64,000 nt of DNA, taken from contig NZ_KI632512.1 of NCBI RefSeq assembly GCF_000504305.1, positions 714,388 to 778,387 of the forward strand, given 5' to 3'. The notes beneath the pieces were generated by a model that ran no database searches, was not told the DNA's origin, and saw only the letters and a list, made by a program, of their open reading frames with translations. Shown here one piece after another: positions 1,480 to 56,747 of this stretch. The position numbers were made by a program, and so were the translations under genes. The stretch is from Nitratidesulfovibrio termitidis HI1 (GTDB lineage Bacteria; Desulfobacterota; Desulfovibrionia; Desulfovibrionales; Desulfovibrionaceae). Each line of letters begins with the position of its first letter. The first letter of the stretch is position 1.

Positions 1480-1519
1480 GCGGGGGAAGAAACCTTTTGG
1501 AAAAGGTTTCTTCCCCCGC
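1480..1519 (+). terminator. Perfect 19-bp hairpin directly after the deacetylase
   Basis: The inverted repeat GCGGGGGAAGAAACCTTTT / AAAAGGTTTCTTCCCCCGC has a 2-nt spacer and begins 11 nt after the stop codon. There is no T-run after it, so it is not a textbook intrinsic terminator. It is the first module of a longer repeated element (1480-1630). Confidence 0.5.
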
Positions 1520-1630
1520 ACCCCCAACTTCCCAAACTTTTCAAATGGTGGGATTCCAGATCGCCAAGCGTTGCCCCACAAATGGGGGGTACAGGGGGCA
1601 TGGCCCCCTGTCCGCCGGAGGCATATAAAA
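1480..1630 (+). repeat. Composite intergenic repeat, copy A
   Basis: Modules in order: the 19-bp hairpin; a conserved spacer reading ACCCCCAACTTCCCAAAC; a variable part; a second hairpin with stem ACAGGGGGC/GCCCCCTGT at 1591-1611; and an end block GCCGGAGGCATATAAAA. The same module order occurs reversed at 11393-11549 (copy B) and, with insertions, at 20826-21126 (copy C). It fills the space between two convergent genes. Confidence 0.75.
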
Positions 1631-11392: not shown

Positions 11393-11549
11393 TTTTTACG
11401 CCTCCGGCGGGCAGGGGACTACGCCCCCTGCACCCCCATATTGTCCCATTCCCCTTGCACCCAGCCAAGTTCGGAACTTACCCAAATAAAAAGTTTGGGA
11501 GGTTGGGGGTCCGGGGGAAGGAACCTTTTCCAAAAGGTTCCTTCCCCCG
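11393..11549 (-). repeat. Composite intergenic repeat, copy B
   Basis: Read on the minus strand it has the same modules as copy A: an 18-bp perfect hairpin (11512-11549) with a 2-nt loop; ACCCCCAACCTCCCAAAC; a variable part; a second hairpin (stem GCAGGGG.C/GCCCCCTGC, 11411-11431); and GCCGGAGGCGTAAAAA. In the first hairpin the A-T pair of copy A is replaced by a G-C pair in both arms, a compensatory change. It begins 26 bp after the DUF4254 gene and ends upstream of gatB. Confidence 0.78.
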
Positions 11550-20774: not shown

Positions 20775-20800
20775 AGGGGCGTTCCCTGCGGAACGCCCCT
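20775..20800. terminator. GGGGCGTTCC hairpin, copy 1
   Basis: AGGGGCGTTCC / GGAACGCCCCT with a 4-nt loop. On the minus strand it is followed by TTTCTTTGTTGG, so it can act as a minus-strand terminator. An almost identical hairpin lies at 21147-21170. Confidence 0.6.
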
Positions 20801-20825
20801 CAGACTGCTGACAAACCCAAATTCT

Positions 20826-21126
20826 TGCGGGGGAGGGACCCTTTTGCGGCAGCCGCAGGCGAGTCCCGAGCCGTACGGATGGCGTCCGCAAAGCGTGAAA
20901 AGGATATCCTCCCCCGCACCCCCGCTTTGCTGTCTTTATCCGTAATGCTCGAAGGCTCGCATAACGGCTAAAGCTCCCCCCAAAACTTTCATTTGTGTTT
21001 CCTGGGCATTATGAAAGCACAAAACAGGGGGTTCCAAGGGGAGGCAGCCGCGTTGCGATCGCCATCCGTAAGGCTCGCAAGCTCGCCTGACGGCTGCCGT
21101 CCTTGGCCGCCGGAGGCGTACAAAAA
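20826..21126 (+). repeat. Composite intergenic repeat, copy C, with nested insertions
   Basis: This has the same start and end blocks as copies A and B: a GCGGGGGAGG arm ... CCTCCCCCGC with ACCCCCGCTTTG after it, and finally GGCCGCCGGAGGCGTACAAAAA. Both hairpins carry insertions at their tips. The insertion at 20848-20894 is homologous to the reverse complement of the one at 21043-21098 (shared GGCAGCCG, CAGGCGAG and TACGGATGGCG blocks). A partial third copy lies between them at 20938-20969. No plus-strand gene lies just upstream, unlike copies A and B, which follow a gene directly. Confidence 0.68.
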
Positions 21127-21146: not shown

Positions 21147-21170
21147 GGGGCGTTCCCTGAGGAACGCCCC
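21147..21170. terminator. GGGGCGTTCC hairpin, copy 2
   Basis: GGGGCGTTCC / GGAACGCCCC with loop CTGA, a near copy of the hairpin at 20775-20800. It lies 50 bp past the lpxR stop and probably ends the minus-strand operon. Confidence 0.65.
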
Positions 21171-21219
21171 TCTGTATGCCATGCTGCGGCGTGGCCCCGT
21201 TGCGATCCCCTGCCTGCGA

Positions 21220-52047: not shown

Positions 52048-53226
52048 TCAGCGGTGCTTCGCTTCCTTGCCCCCCGCAGCCATGGCGTCCCCCGCCACCT
52101 GCCGCACCGCCGCAAACACCGCCTCGGGCGTAATGCCCGTCATGCAGCGCCCGGAATGGGCACAGCGCCTGCTGCCATGCAGCGAACAGGGGCGGCAGGC
52201 ATCGCCGGTTTCCAATACCACGTCGCTCGGGCCTTGCGGGTAGAAGCCCCATTCGCGGGTGGTGGGGCCGAACAGCGCCACCACCGGGGTGCCCACCCCG
52301 GCGGCCAGATGCATGGGCCCGGAATCGCCTGTCACCAGCACATCGGCGGCAGCCAGCAGCGCGCAGGTTTCGCGCAGGTCCGTGCGGTCGGTAAAGTCCG
52401 CCGCCAGCCCGCCTGCACGCCGGGTCTGCTCGGCAAGACCGGACATGGGGCCGGATATGGGGCCCGATATGAGGCCGGACGCGCCCTGTCCACCGGACCG
52501 ACCAACAACAAACCACCCATACCCGGCGGCGGAAAGTCGTCCGGCCAGTTCCCGCCAGGCTTCGGGCAACCAGGCCTTGTCCGGGTGCGTGGAATAGGGA
52601 TGCAGGGCCACCAGCGGACGGGCCGGGGCGGAGGCTTCGCCCAATGCGCCATCCGGCGCACCCGCGTGCATTCCGCCCGCCTCCCCGCCGGGGGCCAGTC
52701 CCGCCTCGCGCAGCAGGGTCAGCCCGCGGCCGCGCTCCGCGTCGTCCAGCAAAATGCGGGGCAACAGGTCGGCGCGGGGCGGCGGCGCGTCCTCCACGGC
52801 CAGGGCATAGCGCTGCGTCACGTTGCAGGCGCGCAACCGCTCGCGGAACACCCGCCCGCCGGAGCGCAAAAACACACGCCGTTCCAGCGAAAACTTGGGG
52901 TAACGGCGCACCGGGCCGGGCCACAGCAGGCCCAGCAGCCGTGAACGCAGGGTGCCATGCAGATCCAGCAGGCCTGCTCCGGGCAGTGATGCCGCCAGCC
53001 TGCGCACGAAACCGGGCAACGCGGCAGGACGCAGGTCGCGCGGGTCCACCGTGACCACCCGGTCCACGGCGGGGTGGTTGCGGAATACCGGAGCCCACTG
53101 CAGCCGTGTCAGCACCACGAAGCGCCAGCCACGGACACGGTGCAGCCACAGCAGCACGCCCGTGGTCAGCACCACGTCGCCCAGCGCGCTCAGGCGCACC
53201 ACCAGCCATGTCTTGGGCAGGGCCAT
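52048..53226 (-). CDS. GT9 glycosyltransferase (heptosyltransferase-like)
   Basis: A 392-residue GT-B enzyme of the ADP-heptose:LPS heptosyltransferase family. It opens TWLVVRLSALGDVVLTTG, the family's loop, and carries the C-terminal donor site VTGDSGPMHLAAGVGTPVVALFGPT. Residues ALHPYSTHPDKAWLP form the mid-domain switch. A Gly/Ser/Pro duplication (GLISGPISGPMSG) lies in a loop. The presence of gmhA in the window supports a heptose-containing core. GGAGAA precedes the start. Confidence 0.87.
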   Translation of the reverse strand: MALPKTWLVVRLSALGDVVLTTGVLLWLHRVRGWRFVVLTRLQWAPVFRNHPAVDRVVTVDPRDLRPAALPGFVRRLAASLPGAGLLDLHGTLRSRLLGLLWPGPVRRYPKFSLERRVFLRSGGRVFRERLRACNVTQRYALAVEDAPPPRADLLPRILLDDAERGRGLTLLREAGLAPGGEAGGMHAGAPDGALGEASAPARPLVALHPYSTHPDKAWLPEAWRELAGRLSAAGYGWFVVGRSGGQGASGLISGPISGPMSGLAEQTRRAGGLAADFTDRTDLRETCALLAAADVLVTGDSGPMHLAAGVGTPVVALFGPTTREWGFYPQGPSDVVLETGDACRPCSLHGSRRCAHSGRCMTGITPEAVFAAVRQVAGDAMAAGGKEAKHR

Positions 53227-53565
53227 CCGTTCTCCGCCGTGTCTCGGCGTGGTTGCAGGTTTGCTGAATTGCGGATAGAGCGCTCACCGCAGGACACGGG
53301 AGTGTTGTCGCCGTTTCCTTCGTGCCGCATTTCAGGTAGGCATAAAGATTGTGTCACCCCTTTGGCAAAACCGGGGGGCGATGCGGCACAGCACTACCAG
53401 CAGCGGCACGGAAAGAAAAGCGCCGCGTTCCGACGCCTGCCGCACTCCGGGCACTCCTTGCGGCAGAAGCATGCCATGGCGCCTTTATCACGGCACACTG
53501 CATTGCGCGGTGCTAGATTGATGGCCCACGCCGCCACACGGCCAGACCCATCCCCCAGGCACTCC
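53227..53565. other. Divergent intergenic region, 339 bp
   Basis: Between the GT9 gene and the sensor kinase. No gene, RNA or convincing promoter is seen; the plus frame is open by composition only. Confidence 0.4.
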
Positions 53566-56292
53566 ATGAACGCCATCCACCCCCACGCCCTTTCCTCGCT
53601 GCTGCGCAGCCCGGCCGCACGGCGCCTGTGGTTGCTGCTGATACTGGCGTGCGGGGTGTTCACCCTGTTCCTGCTGCACGCGGTGCACACCTTCTGGGAA
53701 ACGGCGGAAACGTACCGCCGCAACCACCTGCGTGAAATGGTGCTGCTGGCCCGCAACCAGGTGCAACCGGTGCTGGACGAACTGGCCGCAGGCGCCTACG
53801 GCCGCGACCATGCCCTGGTGCTGGTGCGCGAGCGGGTGCGCACCATGATCTTCAACGATACCCGCGGCCCCAACTACATCTTCATGAGCGGCTACGACGG
53901 CACCGTGCTGGTCCAGCCCTACGAACGCCAGATGGAAGGCAGCAGCGGCCTTGGCCTGCGCGACGCAAACGGCGTGCCCATCATCGCCGAACTCATCAGG
54001 ACCGCGCAGGCAAACCCCAACGGCGGGTATTTCTCGTACGACTACACGCCGCCCGGCGGCAGCGCGCCGGAAGAAAAACTGTCGTTCGTGCTGCCCATCC
54101 CGGAACTGGCCTGCTACATCGGCACCGGCTCGTACCTTGGCGACGTGCACGCGGGGGAACGTCGCTACATCCTGGCCACGGCGGCCCTGGCCGTGACCGT
54201 ATTCGCGCTGCTGGGGCTTACCTTCGTCACCGCGCTGGGTGCCCTTGCCCGGCGTGGCGCGGAACTGGAACGCGAGGTGGAAGAACGCACGGCCACCGAA
54301 CAGCGGCTGGCGGCGGCGGAACTGAAGTACCGGTCCATCTTCCACAACGCGCAGGAAGGCATCGCGGTCATCCAGGACGGGCTGCTGCACTTCGTCAACC
54401 CGCGCATCGGCGAAATACTGCGCCGCCCCACGCAGGAACTGGTGGGCACCCCGTTCGTCGACCACCTGCACCCCGCCGACCGTCCCGTGGCCACGGACAG
54501 GTACATGCGCCGCCTGAACGGCGAATCGCTGGGCACCTACCCGCCGGTGCGCATCTGCGTGCCCGATGGCGAACGCTGGGTGTTCGGCACCGGTGTGCTG
54601 CTGGAATGGGACGGCCGCCCGGCGGTGCTGGTGATGCTGACCGACATCACCGACCTGAAGGAGGCCGAACAGGCCCTGCACGCGCGCGAACAGCAGTTCC
54701 GCGCGGTGCTCACCCAGGCCCCCTTCGCCATGGCCCTGCTGCACCCGGACGGCACCCTGCGCGAAGCCAATGCCGAATGGCTGGCCCTGCACGGCCTTGC
54801 GGAGACCACGGGCAATCCCTCCGTGTACACCCTGGACCAGGACCGCTACGTGCTGCACGCCCGGCTGCACGGGCTGGCCAAGGCGGCCCTTGCGGGTGAA
54901 CCCATCGTCACCGAGCCGCTGGAATTTTCGTCCGCCGTCACACCAGACGGCCAGACCCGCTGGATGGCCCTGCGCCTGTACCCCGTGGCTGGTGCTCCGG
55001 GCACGCCCGATGCCGTGGCCTTCATCCTGCACGACCTGACGGTGCTCATGGAGTCGGAACGCGAGCGCCAGGCGCTGCTGGCCGACCTTTCGCGCGCCAA
55101 CCGTGCCCTGTCCCGCGCCCAGCGCCATCTGAAGGGAGTGCTGGACGCCATGCCCTCGGCCATCGTGGTGGCCGACGCCGCCGACCGGGTGGTGCTGTGG
55201 AATCCGGCGGCGGAACGGCGCTTCGGCGTTGCGGCCCCGTCCGCCCATGGTCGCCCGCTGACGGAAATCGCCCCGGAGCTGGCCCGCCATCTGCCCCGGC
55301 TGCACGCCGCGCGGCGTAGCGGCATGGCCACGCCGCCGGAACGGGTGGTCACCCCCATGGAGCTTCCGGCGGGCGCCCTGCCCGGCACCCCGCCCGCAGA
55401 ATCCCGCCGGGTGGAGGACGTCACCGCCATTCCGTTGGAAACCGGCGAGGAAATGTGGGGCATCCTGCGCCTGGACGACGTGAGCGAGCGCGCCGCCATG
55501 GAAGACCTGATGGTGCAGGCCGAAAAGATGGCCTCCGTGGGCGGCCTTGCCGCGGGCATGGCCCACGAGATCAACAACCCCCTGGGGGGCATCCTGCAGG
55601 GGGTGCAGAACCTGCGCCGCCGTCTGCTGGACGATCTGCCCGCCAACCGAGCCGCGGCTGAGCGACAGGGCGTGGACTTCAGCCGCATCGCCGACTACGT
55701 CGAAGCCCGCCGCATCGGCGGGCTGCTGGACGGCATCCGCGAATCGGGCGAGCGTGCGGCGCGCATCGTGGCCAACATGCTCACCTTCAGCCGCCGCAGC
55801 GATCCTTCGCGGGTGCCGGTACAGATCAACGACCTGCTGGAACGCACCCTTGAGCTGGCCGTCACCGATTACAGCCTGGCCCGCAACTACGATTTCAAGC
55901 GCATTGCCGTGGTGCGCCGCTACGACCCGCAACTGCCGCGGGTGCGCTGTTCCGCCAGCGAGATGGAGCAGGTGTTCCTGAACCTGTTCAAGAACGCGGC
56001 CCAGGCCCTTTCGCTGCGCGACGACGGGCCGCCGCCGGTGCTGACGGTGACCACGGCGGTGGAGGCGGCGCACCTGCGCATCGAGGTGGCCGACAACGGC
56101 CCCGGCATGTCTCCAGAGTTGCGCCGCCGGGCCTTCGAGCCGTTCTTCACCACGCGCGAGGCAGGCGCGGGCACGGGACTGGGCCTGTCCGTGGCCTACT
56201 TCATCGTGGTCACCAACCACAAGGGCACCATCACCATCGAAGAAGCGCCCGAAGGTGGCGCCGTGTTCGTGGTGCGCCTGCCCCTGGCCTGA
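53566..56292 (+). CDS. Sensor histidine kinase with Cache and multiple PAS domains
   Basis: A 908-residue membrane sensor kinase. A first membrane segment (about 19-42) is followed by an extracytoplasmic Cache-like domain (about 45-200, with NYIFMSGYDGTVLVQPYE and YFSYDYTPPGG), a second helix (about 205-228), then three PAS-like domains (about 255-365, 375-500, 520-620). The kinase core has the H-box GMAHEINNPLGG, the N-box LFKNAAQAL, and ATP-lid DNGPGMSPELR plus FFTTREAGAGTGLGL. The start at 53566 lacks a strong ribosome site; ATG at 53521 is an alternative. No response regulator is adjacent, so it is an orphan kinase. Confidence 0.88.
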   Translation: MNAIHPHALSSLLRSPAARRLWLLLILACGVFTLFLLHAVHTFWETAETYRRNHLREMVLLARNQVQPVLDELAAGAYGRDHALVLVRERVRTMIFNDTRGPNYIFMSGYDGTVLVQPYERQMEGSSGLGLRDANGVPIIAELIRTAQANPNGGYFSYDYTPPGGSAPEEKLSFVLPIPELACYIGTGSYLGDVHAGERRYILATAALAVTVFALLGLTFVTALGALARRGAELEREVEERTATEQRLAAAELKYRSIFHNAQEGIAVIQDGLLHFVNPRIGEILRRPTQELVGTPFVDHLHPADRPVATDRYMRRLNGESLGTYPPVRICVPDGERWVFGTGVLLEWDGRPAVLVMLTDITDLKEAEQALHAREQQFRAVLTQAPFAMALLHPDGTLREANAEWLALHGLAETTGNPSVYTLDQDRYVLHARLHGLAKAALAGEPIVTEPLEFSSAVTPDGQTRWMALRLYPVAGAPGTPDAVAFILHDLTVLMESERERQALLADLSRANRALSRAQRHLKGVLDAMPSAIVVADAADRVVLWNPAAERRFGVAAPSAHGRPLTEIAPELARHLPRLHAARRSGMATPPERVVTPMELPAGALPGTPPAESRRVEDVTAIPLETGEEMWGILRLDDVSERAAMEDLMVQAEKMASVGGLAAGMAHEINNPLGGILQGVQNLRRRLLDDLPANRAAAERQGVDFSRIADYVEARRIGGLLDGIRESGERAARIVANMLTFSRRSDPSRVPVQINDLLERTLELAVTDYSLARNYDFKRIAVVRRYDPQLPRVRCSASEMEQVFLNLFKNAAQALSLRDDGPPPVLTVTTAVEAAHLRIEVADNGPGMSPELRRRAFEPFFTTREAGAGTGLGLSVAYFIVVTNHKGTITIEEAPEGGAVFVVRLPLA

Positions 56293-56747
56293 TGCCACCC
56301 CGATGCGAGCATGACGCGGGCATGATGCGGGCATGATGCGGGCATGATGCGGGCATGACGCGGGCATGATGCCGCAGTGATGCCGCCCTGATACCCCAGT
56401 GCTGGCGAACCGGACCAGCCCCTTCCGCCAGCACGCCGCGCCATTCCTGCCCAACGGCCGGTCCGCGCGATGCCCCAGAACCCTTCGGACCCCTTCCTTT
56501 CCCCATTCCCCCCGGTCTTCCTTCATGCAGCCCCGGCCCGCGCCGGGGCTTCTGCAAATCGTCACCTGTCCGTCACCGCCGTCACCGGCCTCTTCATGCT
56601 AACTACCCGCCGAGAGAAGTACCGACGCCGCGCGGCGTCACGCAAGCGTCACCGCGCCTTCAAGGGCAAACGACCAGCGGACGACACACTCACCGTTCCG
56701 CGTCGGATTGTGCCCGGCAACGTGTCCGACAGTATCCGGGGGGATAC
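56293..56747. other. Intergenic region with tandem repeat, 455 bp
   Basis: Between the sensor kinase and the EAL-CBS-GGDEF gene. It contains a six-copy 11-bp tandem repeat (56309-56373) near its left end. Nothing else is recognised. Confidence 0.5.
56309..56373. repeat. 11-bp tandem repeat, six copies
   Basis: Unit GCATGAYGCGG repeats with an 11-bp period (about one helical turn) from 56309 to 56373; the last unit is degenerate. It begins 17 bp after the sensor kinase stop. Confidence 0.88.

Follow-up and report, generated by a model that had tools for sequence, protein, structure and literature searches.

A dispersed gene-end element with a putative third strand in Nitratidesulfovibrio termitidis: a candidate transcription boundary

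Three intergenic regions within a 64-kb stretch of the Nitratidesulfovibrio termitidis HI1 genome (the whole stretch analysed, called the window here; the genome holding it is 4.26 Mb in a single contig) carry the same hairpin modules, and they raise the question of what kind of element this is and what its sequence is kept for. A preliminary description had treated them as copies of one composite, with a first hairpin, a C-rich "spacer", a second hairpin and a final block in fixed order. We observed that the composite is real at the three sites (A, B and C, on the +, - and + strands), with the modules where they had been placed. The fixed order, however, did not hold across the genome: among 59 copies of the first hairpin, 16 had the motif of the second hairpin (GCCGGAGGC or GCCGAAGGC) within 400 nt downstream, always in the same relative orientation. 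A fixed composite unit was ruled out, as 43/59 copies had no such motif nearby. The composite consists of three separable dispersed families, M1 (the first hairpin with its C-rich "spacer"), M2 (the second hairpin) and E2 (a third palindrome).

In copy A, the M1 hairpin lies at 1480..1519 (+), with Watson-Crick arms seen in sequence and fold and the purine arm, GGGGGAAGAAA, on the 5' side; the covariance-model match is at genome 715867-715946. It is followed by a 3-nt linker, GCA (1518..1520, +), of which the first two bases take part in the pairing at the hairpin foot as well, and then by the putative third strand (1521..1537, +). In this strand CCCCCAACTTC matches the purine arm in parallel register at 8/11, CC forms the junction, and AAAC matches the T-run at the arm top. 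A T-run (1538..1541, +) comes directly after, within the conserved block CCAAACTTTTCAA. The M2 of copy A (1584..1629, +) reads GGGGGGTACAGGGGGC-loop-GCCCCCTGT plus CCGCCGGAGGCATATAAA. In copy B, on the - strand, sequence, fold and covariance-model match place the M1 hairpin at 11512..11549; the third strand is at 11493..11509 (G-rich on +: GTTTGGGAGGTTGGGGG), the T-run after it at 11488..11492 (AAAAA on +), and M2 with GCCGGAGGC at 11396..11437.

Copy C is interrupted twice by an inserted E2 palindrome, in the hairpin loop and again in the tail, as judged by comparison with uninterrupted copies of its subtype at genome 3665873 and 2746155. Its M1 hairpin, GCGGGGGAGGGACCCTTTTG / GAAAAGGATATCCTCCCCCGC, spans 20827..20917 (+), with E2 in the loop at about 20847-20896. 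The split third strand (20919..20986, +) consists of CCCCC at 20919-20923 and CTCCCCCCAAAAC at 20974-20986, its uninterrupted form being ACCCCCTCCCCCCAAAACTTTC at genome 2746155, and the T-run follows at 20987-20989 (+). M2 of copy C (21028..21125, +) likewise carries E2 in the loop (pattern match at genome 735450), with GCCGGAGGCGTACAAAAA at its end. An ordinary GGGGCGTTCC hairpin stands first, ahead of M1. We also noted that copy C is flanked by near-identical ordinary terminator-like hairpins, GGGGCGTTCCCTG[CA]GGAACGCCCC, at window 20776-20808 and 21147-21179.

Copies A and B are joined by a 68-nt inverted match (90%). Both fold far better than shuffled sequences, with z of -4.8 and -5.2 and 0/200 shuffles as good; the two copy C stretches gave z of -2.7 and -2.0. 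With 1 mismatch allowed, CCTTTTNNAAAAGG occurs 2 times in the window vs 0.01 expected; GCCGGAGGC alone was not significant (3 found vs 2.66 expected), and Rfam gave 0 matches within the window at gathering score. The compensatory pair that had been described between copies A and B is real, GGGGGAAGAAACC in copy A being GGGGGAAGGAACC in copy B with the opposite arm altered to match. The variable x in the "spacer" ACCCCCAACxTCCC is the third-strand partner of this same pair, T in A and C in B.

The preliminary description had called for a covariance search of the genome. With a model built from 25 own-genome copies, and the best 150 of 1081 first-look candidates scored, this search gave at least 135 matches at no fewer than 85 separate places; these M1 counts are lower bounds, because 150/1081 candidates were scored. 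For the 85 places 107 of the 135 match rows were used, and the other 28 were seen by eye to overlap stronger rows, being mostly one hairpin re-read on the opposite strand. There were 66 places at 25 bits or more, from which we left out 3 without a usable hairpin and 4 with short arms, leaving the 59 that were tested. Four of these have an interrupted or missing tail (2671249, 2563576, 3219200 and 1268499) and were kept in the swap and gene-context counts and excluded from the letter and T-run counts; three (1268499, 2859461 and 2876181) overlap an ORF call. The M1 stems vary in length and sequence from copy to copy. Two of the loci draw attention: at L107 (genome 3219200-3220408) and L119 (genome 4182052-4183271) M1 is split by a seemingly identical IS-like insertion of about 1.1 kb, which sits in the tail in one of them and in the hairpin loop in the other.

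M2 is a repeat family of its own, its motif CCCTGCCCGCCGGAGGC having 107 genome matches at up to 2 mismatches vs 8 for the reversed control. Read in its own sense it consists of a G5 arm, a C5 arm, a TGCA linker and C4-5, and M2 (1584-1629, 11396-11437; L019) may be a short, oppositely facing version of the M1 architecture; the L019 copy stands soon after an apparent (putative) stop codon. E2, of about 50 nt, had 93 own-genome pattern matches vs 0 for its control. In the window it occupies hairpin loops of M1 and M2, or else the tail of M1 (about 20847-20896, 20924-20973 and 21040-21100), and further M1 copies with E2 insertions are the own-genome loci L011, L026 and L113, and L175 in the relative G005. 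Insertion specific to loops would suggest extruded hairpin DNA as the target. Elsewhere in the window (56275-56384), tandem 11-nt units of the GGCATGATGCG type, with seven overlapping 44-nt copies, sit at the end of a long ORF (53074-56292).

The main finding concerns the "spacer". Past a linker of 3 nt, its sequence complements the purine arm in parallel, in other words mirrors the 3' arm. When all copies are printed in one orientation, the tail follows the stem in parallel, as in the own-genome pairs GGGGAGAGGGGAGAAAAC + CCCCTCTCCCCTCTTTCA, GGGGGAGGGAAAGGAAAC + CCCCCTCCCTATCCTTCA and GGGGGAGAGGAAGGAAAC + CCCCCTCTCCATCCTTCA. Judged by its sequence, a tail mirroring the 3' arm is the signature of an intrastrand triple helix, and M1 has the general motif of such triplexes (classes I-IV), namely three consecutive matching purine/pyrimidine strands with short loops. 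Copying and template switching yield direct or inverted repeats, not mirrors; the tail is a near mirror of the 3' arm, unlike such products, and thus points to a three-stranded fold.

We estimated the fit between arm and tail by swapping tails among copies. At the 59 places, own tails fitted at 0.827 and swapped tails at 0.713, with 0/20000 permutations reaching the observed mean. The difference was also seen with the 32 distinct arms (0.820 own vs 0.671 swapped) and with the 21 arms of at least 12 purines (0.828 vs 0.674). Fits were the best of linkers 1-5, identically for own and swapped cases, and the search model treats arm and tail independently, so the fit was not created by the search. 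Counting against the match, the own tail was best or tied-best for its arm at 30/59 places and for 19/32 distinct arms; this is because many copies have similar tails. The register is sharp, with a parallel peak of 0.74 at linker 3 and neighbours at or below 0.56 (77 distinct arms), and the linker measures 3 nt in 50/55 intact copies. Antiparallel pairing of tail and arm, as in a switch hairpin, was rejected: its complement fit of 0.627 lies below the swapped level of 0.671, and no register peak appeared (0.29-0.49 over the whole arm and 0.22-0.55 past the first G-run, vs a parallel peak of 0.65). A second hairpin after the tail (CCCAA..TTGGG), which was built into the search model, was not counted as part of the element, since it was seen by eye mainly in the genus and hardly in other genera.

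The letters facing each other were tabulated for loci with a fit of at least 0.6 (31/31 own, 66/76 in the union). For the 31 distinct arms of the own genome, 270/273 G's have C opposite them in the tail; opposite the 108 A's short of the final one stand T (73 cases), A (29), C (4) or G (2). For the final A of the purine arm the tail has C in 25/26 cases, a mismatch in either triplex motif that was counted against the fold. Above this A the arm turns pyrimidine, and in nearly all copies the tail has C for the junction C's and A for the T-run; some copies have AGAA in the tail for TCTT in the arm. All intact copies (55/55) have at least 3 consecutive T's in the 16 nt that come after the purine-matched third strand.

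We then asked how far this rule extends. At E 0.01, with up to 120 candidates scored per genome, the M1 model matched 8/8 genomes of the genus (own included), 14/15 other genomes of the family and 0/16 genomes of other families in the order. Exact matches to the M1 core occur in Nitratidesulfovibrio liaohensis, N. oxamicus, Desulfovibrio sp. A2 and two Desulfovibrio MAGs (20 stretches). The family set comprised 134 analysed loci, 8 of them without a hairpin and 112 with arms of at least 7; each locus was first oriented by its best fit, and those for which the more C-rich flank led to the same choice were retained (111/112), and the few loci fetched twice were removed in the 'distinct arms' tests only. 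Own tails again exceeded swapped tails in G005 (45 loci, 0.816 vs 0.732, 0/5000), G022 (25 loci, 0.718 vs 0.624, 0/5000), G012 (21 loci, 0.771 vs 0.734, 4/5000, the weakest case) and the other genera (40 distinct arms, 0.742 vs 0.633, 0/5000). The rule holds with unrelated stems in other genera, such as GAGGGGGAAACCTCTT + CTCCCCCTTCCAGAA (L134) and GGGGGGAAGGAAACTTTTTT + CCCCCCATCCTTCAAAAAA (L131). A fit of at least 0.7 was found for 62/77 distinct arms overall, with an uneven distribution outside the genus (7/14 in G022, 7/10 in G012 and 0/2 in G020), which was counted against the rule; some of the low-fit arms are wrongly picked hairpins that were left in the counts.

Orthologous sites allowed a direct comparison. 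Through their flanking genes, 18/59 own M1 copies pair with one of 44 G005 copies (2426999/L194, a locus common to another pair, was set aside). Leaving out the interrupted 2563576, 17 pairs remained, in which the arm is kept in 10 and changed in 7. Where it changed, the own tail fitted at 0.815 vs 0.711 for the orthologue's tail, and in the 14 comparisons the own tail was better in 10, equal in 4 and worse in 0. In the cleanest case, 5072, one stem pair differs (GGGGGAGGG -> GGGGGAAGG) and the tail changes to match (CCCCCACCC -> CCCCCATCC); at copy A, own genome and G005 differ by changes in all three strands. Some changed pairs could also stem from one whole copy having replaced another, with the three strands still matched. 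Among the 10 unchanged pairs, one G005 tail is truncated (2752119; fit 0.67). With this pair also left out, identity over 16 pairs was 0.91 in the hairpin, 0.89 in linker plus third strand and 0.87 in the next 16 nt, the block with the T-run. The flanks next to the element on either side had 0.58-0.59, and the stretch 21-60 nt upstream, in which coding sequence starts, had 0.74. At the level of sequence, three-way covariation, its register and its conservation are established by these comparisons. The selection for structure that had been proposed is supported by covariation and conservation, although the structure would be three-stranded and not a hairpin alone. Altogether M1 is, with high probability, a selected three-stranded structure.

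Gene context was assessed with a home-made caller based on codon usage. Neighbours could be called on both sides for 57/59 copies: 27 lie between two genes running with the element, 16 between convergent genes and 14 where both genes run against it, and 0/57 lie between divergent genes. Divergent gaps make up 8/32 window gaps of at least 100 nt, which gives p 1e-7, or 1e-4 at a 15% background. For family loci with a fit of at least 0.7, M1 stood between divergent genes at 0/36 loci in G005 (not independent of the own genome), 0/14 in G022 and 1/18 in G012. The distance from stop codon to hairpin has a median of 27 nt, and 37/43 same-strand stops lie 7-46 nt away; the six exceptions (100 nt or more) are the copy C subtype. 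The link to gene 3' ends that the preliminary description had proposed is supported, and its distances of 11-27 agree with our hairpin foot at 10 nt (A) and about 26 nt (B). The 14 against-running copies do not fit simply. Apart from two outliers at 13 and 1051, their stop codon and tail are 68-324 nt apart, and their hairpin sits ahead of the next gene's start codon, an odd location for a terminator of the first gene that was counted against a boundary role.

The co-evolving three-strand element at gene ends would, on our best explanation of the whole (probability roughly 0.5), act as a transcription boundary. The boundary role taken by itself we hold tentatively, at slightly under an even chance; termination or 3'-end processing is what we infer first. 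The geometry of hairpin, third strand and T-run, together with gene-end placement, agrees with such a role. In the element the purine arm would pair with the pyrimidine arm by Watson-Crick rules, and the third strand, beyond the 3-nt linker, would fold back onto the hairpin. In the lower stem G lies opposite C and A opposite T or A; at the stem top the purines shift to the other arm, and the third strand is mostly C and A. M1 would stop transcription at gene borders as follows. The passage of RNA polymerase may free the strand behind it, and hairpin and third strand could then zip up at the moment when the polymerase occupies the weak T-run that comes next. This zipping would extract the template (or the RNA) from the complex and block read-through. 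A bolder proposal, that a natural triple helix switching strand half-way, its third strand lying along one arm in the lower half and along the other in the upper, serves as terminator or insulator in the cell at gene borders across a bacterial family, with selection on all strands, is conceivable, and we consider it closer to one chance in three than to an even one; if true, it would be the three-stranded counterpart of the terminator hairpin.

On which strand would the triplex form? Under the scheme of classes I-IV of Holder 2015 (PMC4666352, drawn on here in part), the C-rich strand read 5'-3' has purine arm, loop, pyrimidine arm, linker, third strand and T-run (class III), and the G-rich strand has third strand, linker, purine arm, loop and pyrimidine arm (class I). 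On the G-rich strand the lower stem has G opposite G-C and A or T opposite A-T, which the purine motif permits, and the upper stem has T opposite T-A pairs, which the pyrimidine motif permits; in the C-rich reading the inner A's would count as mismatches. Stem wobbles among 1789 pairs of 108 distinct hairpins were G.T in 7 (three in one doubtful hairpin) and A.C in 6. Selection through RNA should favour G.U. With G.T about as frequent as A.C there is therefore no sign of selection through RNA. Letters and wobbles together lean, tentatively and on small numbers, towards DNA and the G-rich strand.

The strongest rival holds that M1 is a passive repeat like BoxC/PIT, with a real triplex that shapes DNA replication, recombination or element copying and has no transcription role, gene ends being where such repeats are tolerated. 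We give this perhaps half the weight of the boundary reading. The many copies, the E2 palindromes and IS-like insert in loops and tails, and the wobble counts above all suit it. So does the clustering of M1: genome 2.4-3.0 Mb, the region around the origin that skew places at about 2.7 Mb, holds 21/59 copies (p 3e-5 vs an even spread, to which the candidate-limited search may add bias); in E. coli K-12, BoxC is described as nearer the origin (PMC4666352, in the portions consulted). The bias between replication strands is not clear, however (24 vs 35, p 0.19). Several relatives are without M1 at the copy A site: in G003, G004, G006 and G007 this site holds other DNA, with no M1 before gene 1663-2688 and a plain hairpin-plus-T terminator before the counterpart of that gene. 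The plain terminator at this site was counted for the boundary role. In G003, G006 and G007 the gene carrying copy A is without M1, and inspection by eye of the 260 nt past its stop showed no comparable hairpin; M1 is thus dispensable at this site, which was counted against the boundary role. BoxC, in published data (PMC4666352), goes with genome instability and showed no terminator activity. Against a passive repeat stand the absence of M1 between divergent genes, the tight distance from stop codon to hairpin, and orthologous sites conserved while their flanks decay. Gene-end placement, like the covariation, is established from the genome sequence.

A second rival places the triple helix in RNA. 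In viral and lncRNA 3' elements, a triple helix guards the transcript from 3' exonucleases. By analogy, the C/U-rich third strand of the sense transcript would enter the major groove of the hairpin, and the transcript would end at the U-run, guarded in the same way. The order of purine arm, pyrimidine arm, third strand and T-run suits a transcript 3' end, and RNA can form pyrimidine-motif triplexes (not purine-motif ones; PMC4666352, in part). The letters, however, oppose it, since a lower-stem A faces A in 42/203 cases (66 loci), and in the own genome in about a quarter (29/108, as given above), and this is disallowed in the pyrimidine motif; the own-genome share was also counted against the main reading. 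The stems moreover have no preference for G.T over A.C, and C-rich class III triplexes are said to require acid conditions (PMC4666352, in part). We regard the RNA version as unlikely, more so than the passive repeat.

M1 copies might also be ordinary bidirectional intrinsic terminators, the tail being a Rho-loading C-rich stretch or a G-quadruplex of the opposite strand and its fit to the arm incidental. Strong GC hairpins soon after most stop codons would be expected of these. The 5' flank of M1 is A-rich (0.41-0.46 A), so that the other strand is T-rich past the hairpin, and the 14 against-running copies, read from that side, show hairpin and then T-rich flank; a scan for terminators (16 sites vs 13.7 expected) called copies A and B, each on the strand that M1 does not read along. 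Rho loading or a G-quadruplex has no need of a base-by-base parallel match of tail to arm, and the swap, register and orthologue tests oppose an incidental fit, which makes this explanation improbable. A G-quadruplex on the G-rich strand was considered separately and set aside: it is possible, but does not predict the base-by-base match. Lastly, the REP-like mobile reading of the preliminary description, a REP/RAYT element with a hairpin that a Y1 transposase would recognise, is suggested by dispersed palindromes, many copies and partial linkage to a second hairpin module, and we rejected it as very improbable, since a search of the genome for PF01797 (Y1/TnpA-REP) was empty (the control matched in 5/14 known genomes), 18 copies have an orthologue in place in G005, stems differ between copies in length and sequence, and most M1 copies have no M2 motif near, the composite not being one unit.

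The formation and importance of intramolecular triplexes in bacterial cells is an open question. M1 bears on it because the match between stem and third strand is retained in dozens of stems that vary in length and sequence, and likewise in other genera and at orthologous sites. Such covariation is of the kind used to establish RNA structures, here extended to three strands. The M1 copies are a ready-made mutant series for testing fold and function, and through them a function of such triple helices in living bacteria becomes testable. Among the hits listed from the open-access literature, we found no paper tying triplexes to Desulfovibrio (the ITxF database, outside this search, may list such motifs), and a term search of PMC4666352 gave no mention of Desulfovibrio.

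M1 shares features with several known systems. Like Rho-independent terminators it has a stable GC-rich hairpin soon downstream of the stop codon and then a T-run; unlike them, it has a stem-matched third strand of 12-20 nt between the two, and in the sense direction no T-run stands directly after the hairpin. With REP/BIME elements and RAYT it has in common the many intergenic palindromes near gene ends, whereas its genome has no RAYT match, its stems vary and a third strand is present. As in H-DNA and mirror repeats, the third strand mirrors one arm in a mostly homopurine-homopyrimidine tract; H-DNA needs the mirror only, and M1 keeps the inverted arm too, which puts all three strands on one strand.

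BoxC/PIT elements were reportedly described by Hoyne and Maher in 2000 and 2002, work that we know through Holder et al. 2015. The article of Holder et al. itself (PMC4666352), from which the following is taken in part, deals with intrastrand triplex repeats in bacteria, BoxC/PIT/TM_ECO, the known kind to which M1 comes closest. Both these and M1 are dispersed intergenic repeats capable of intrastrand triplexes, with about 9 or more G-rich triads, a 3-nt loop ahead of the third strand and a purine-motif reading on the G-rich strand. BoxC/TM_ECO folds in vitro, and in vivo footprinting did not support stable formation. The E. coli PIT/BoxC elements are reported to have shown no terminator activity, which was counted against a boundary role of M1. 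By the published triplex finder, M1 has more mismatches (the last A and some inner A's) than the one allowed, and the exact TM_ECO pattern, CCCTCNCCC-N3-6-GGGNGAGGG-N3-GGGNGAGGG, has 0 matches in the whole own genome. The strand order of TM_ECO is C-rich, G-rich, G-rich (class II), whereas the G-rich strand of M1 is class I and its C-rich strand class III. In E. coli the TM_ECO copies are nearly identical, so that covariation is not visible there, whereas M1 stems vary together with a matching third strand. TM_ECO is more often found upstream of ORFs at no set distance, and M1 at gene ends. What is new in M1 relative to BoxC/PIT is therefore its triplex class, i.e. the strand order, its place at gene ends and its covariation.
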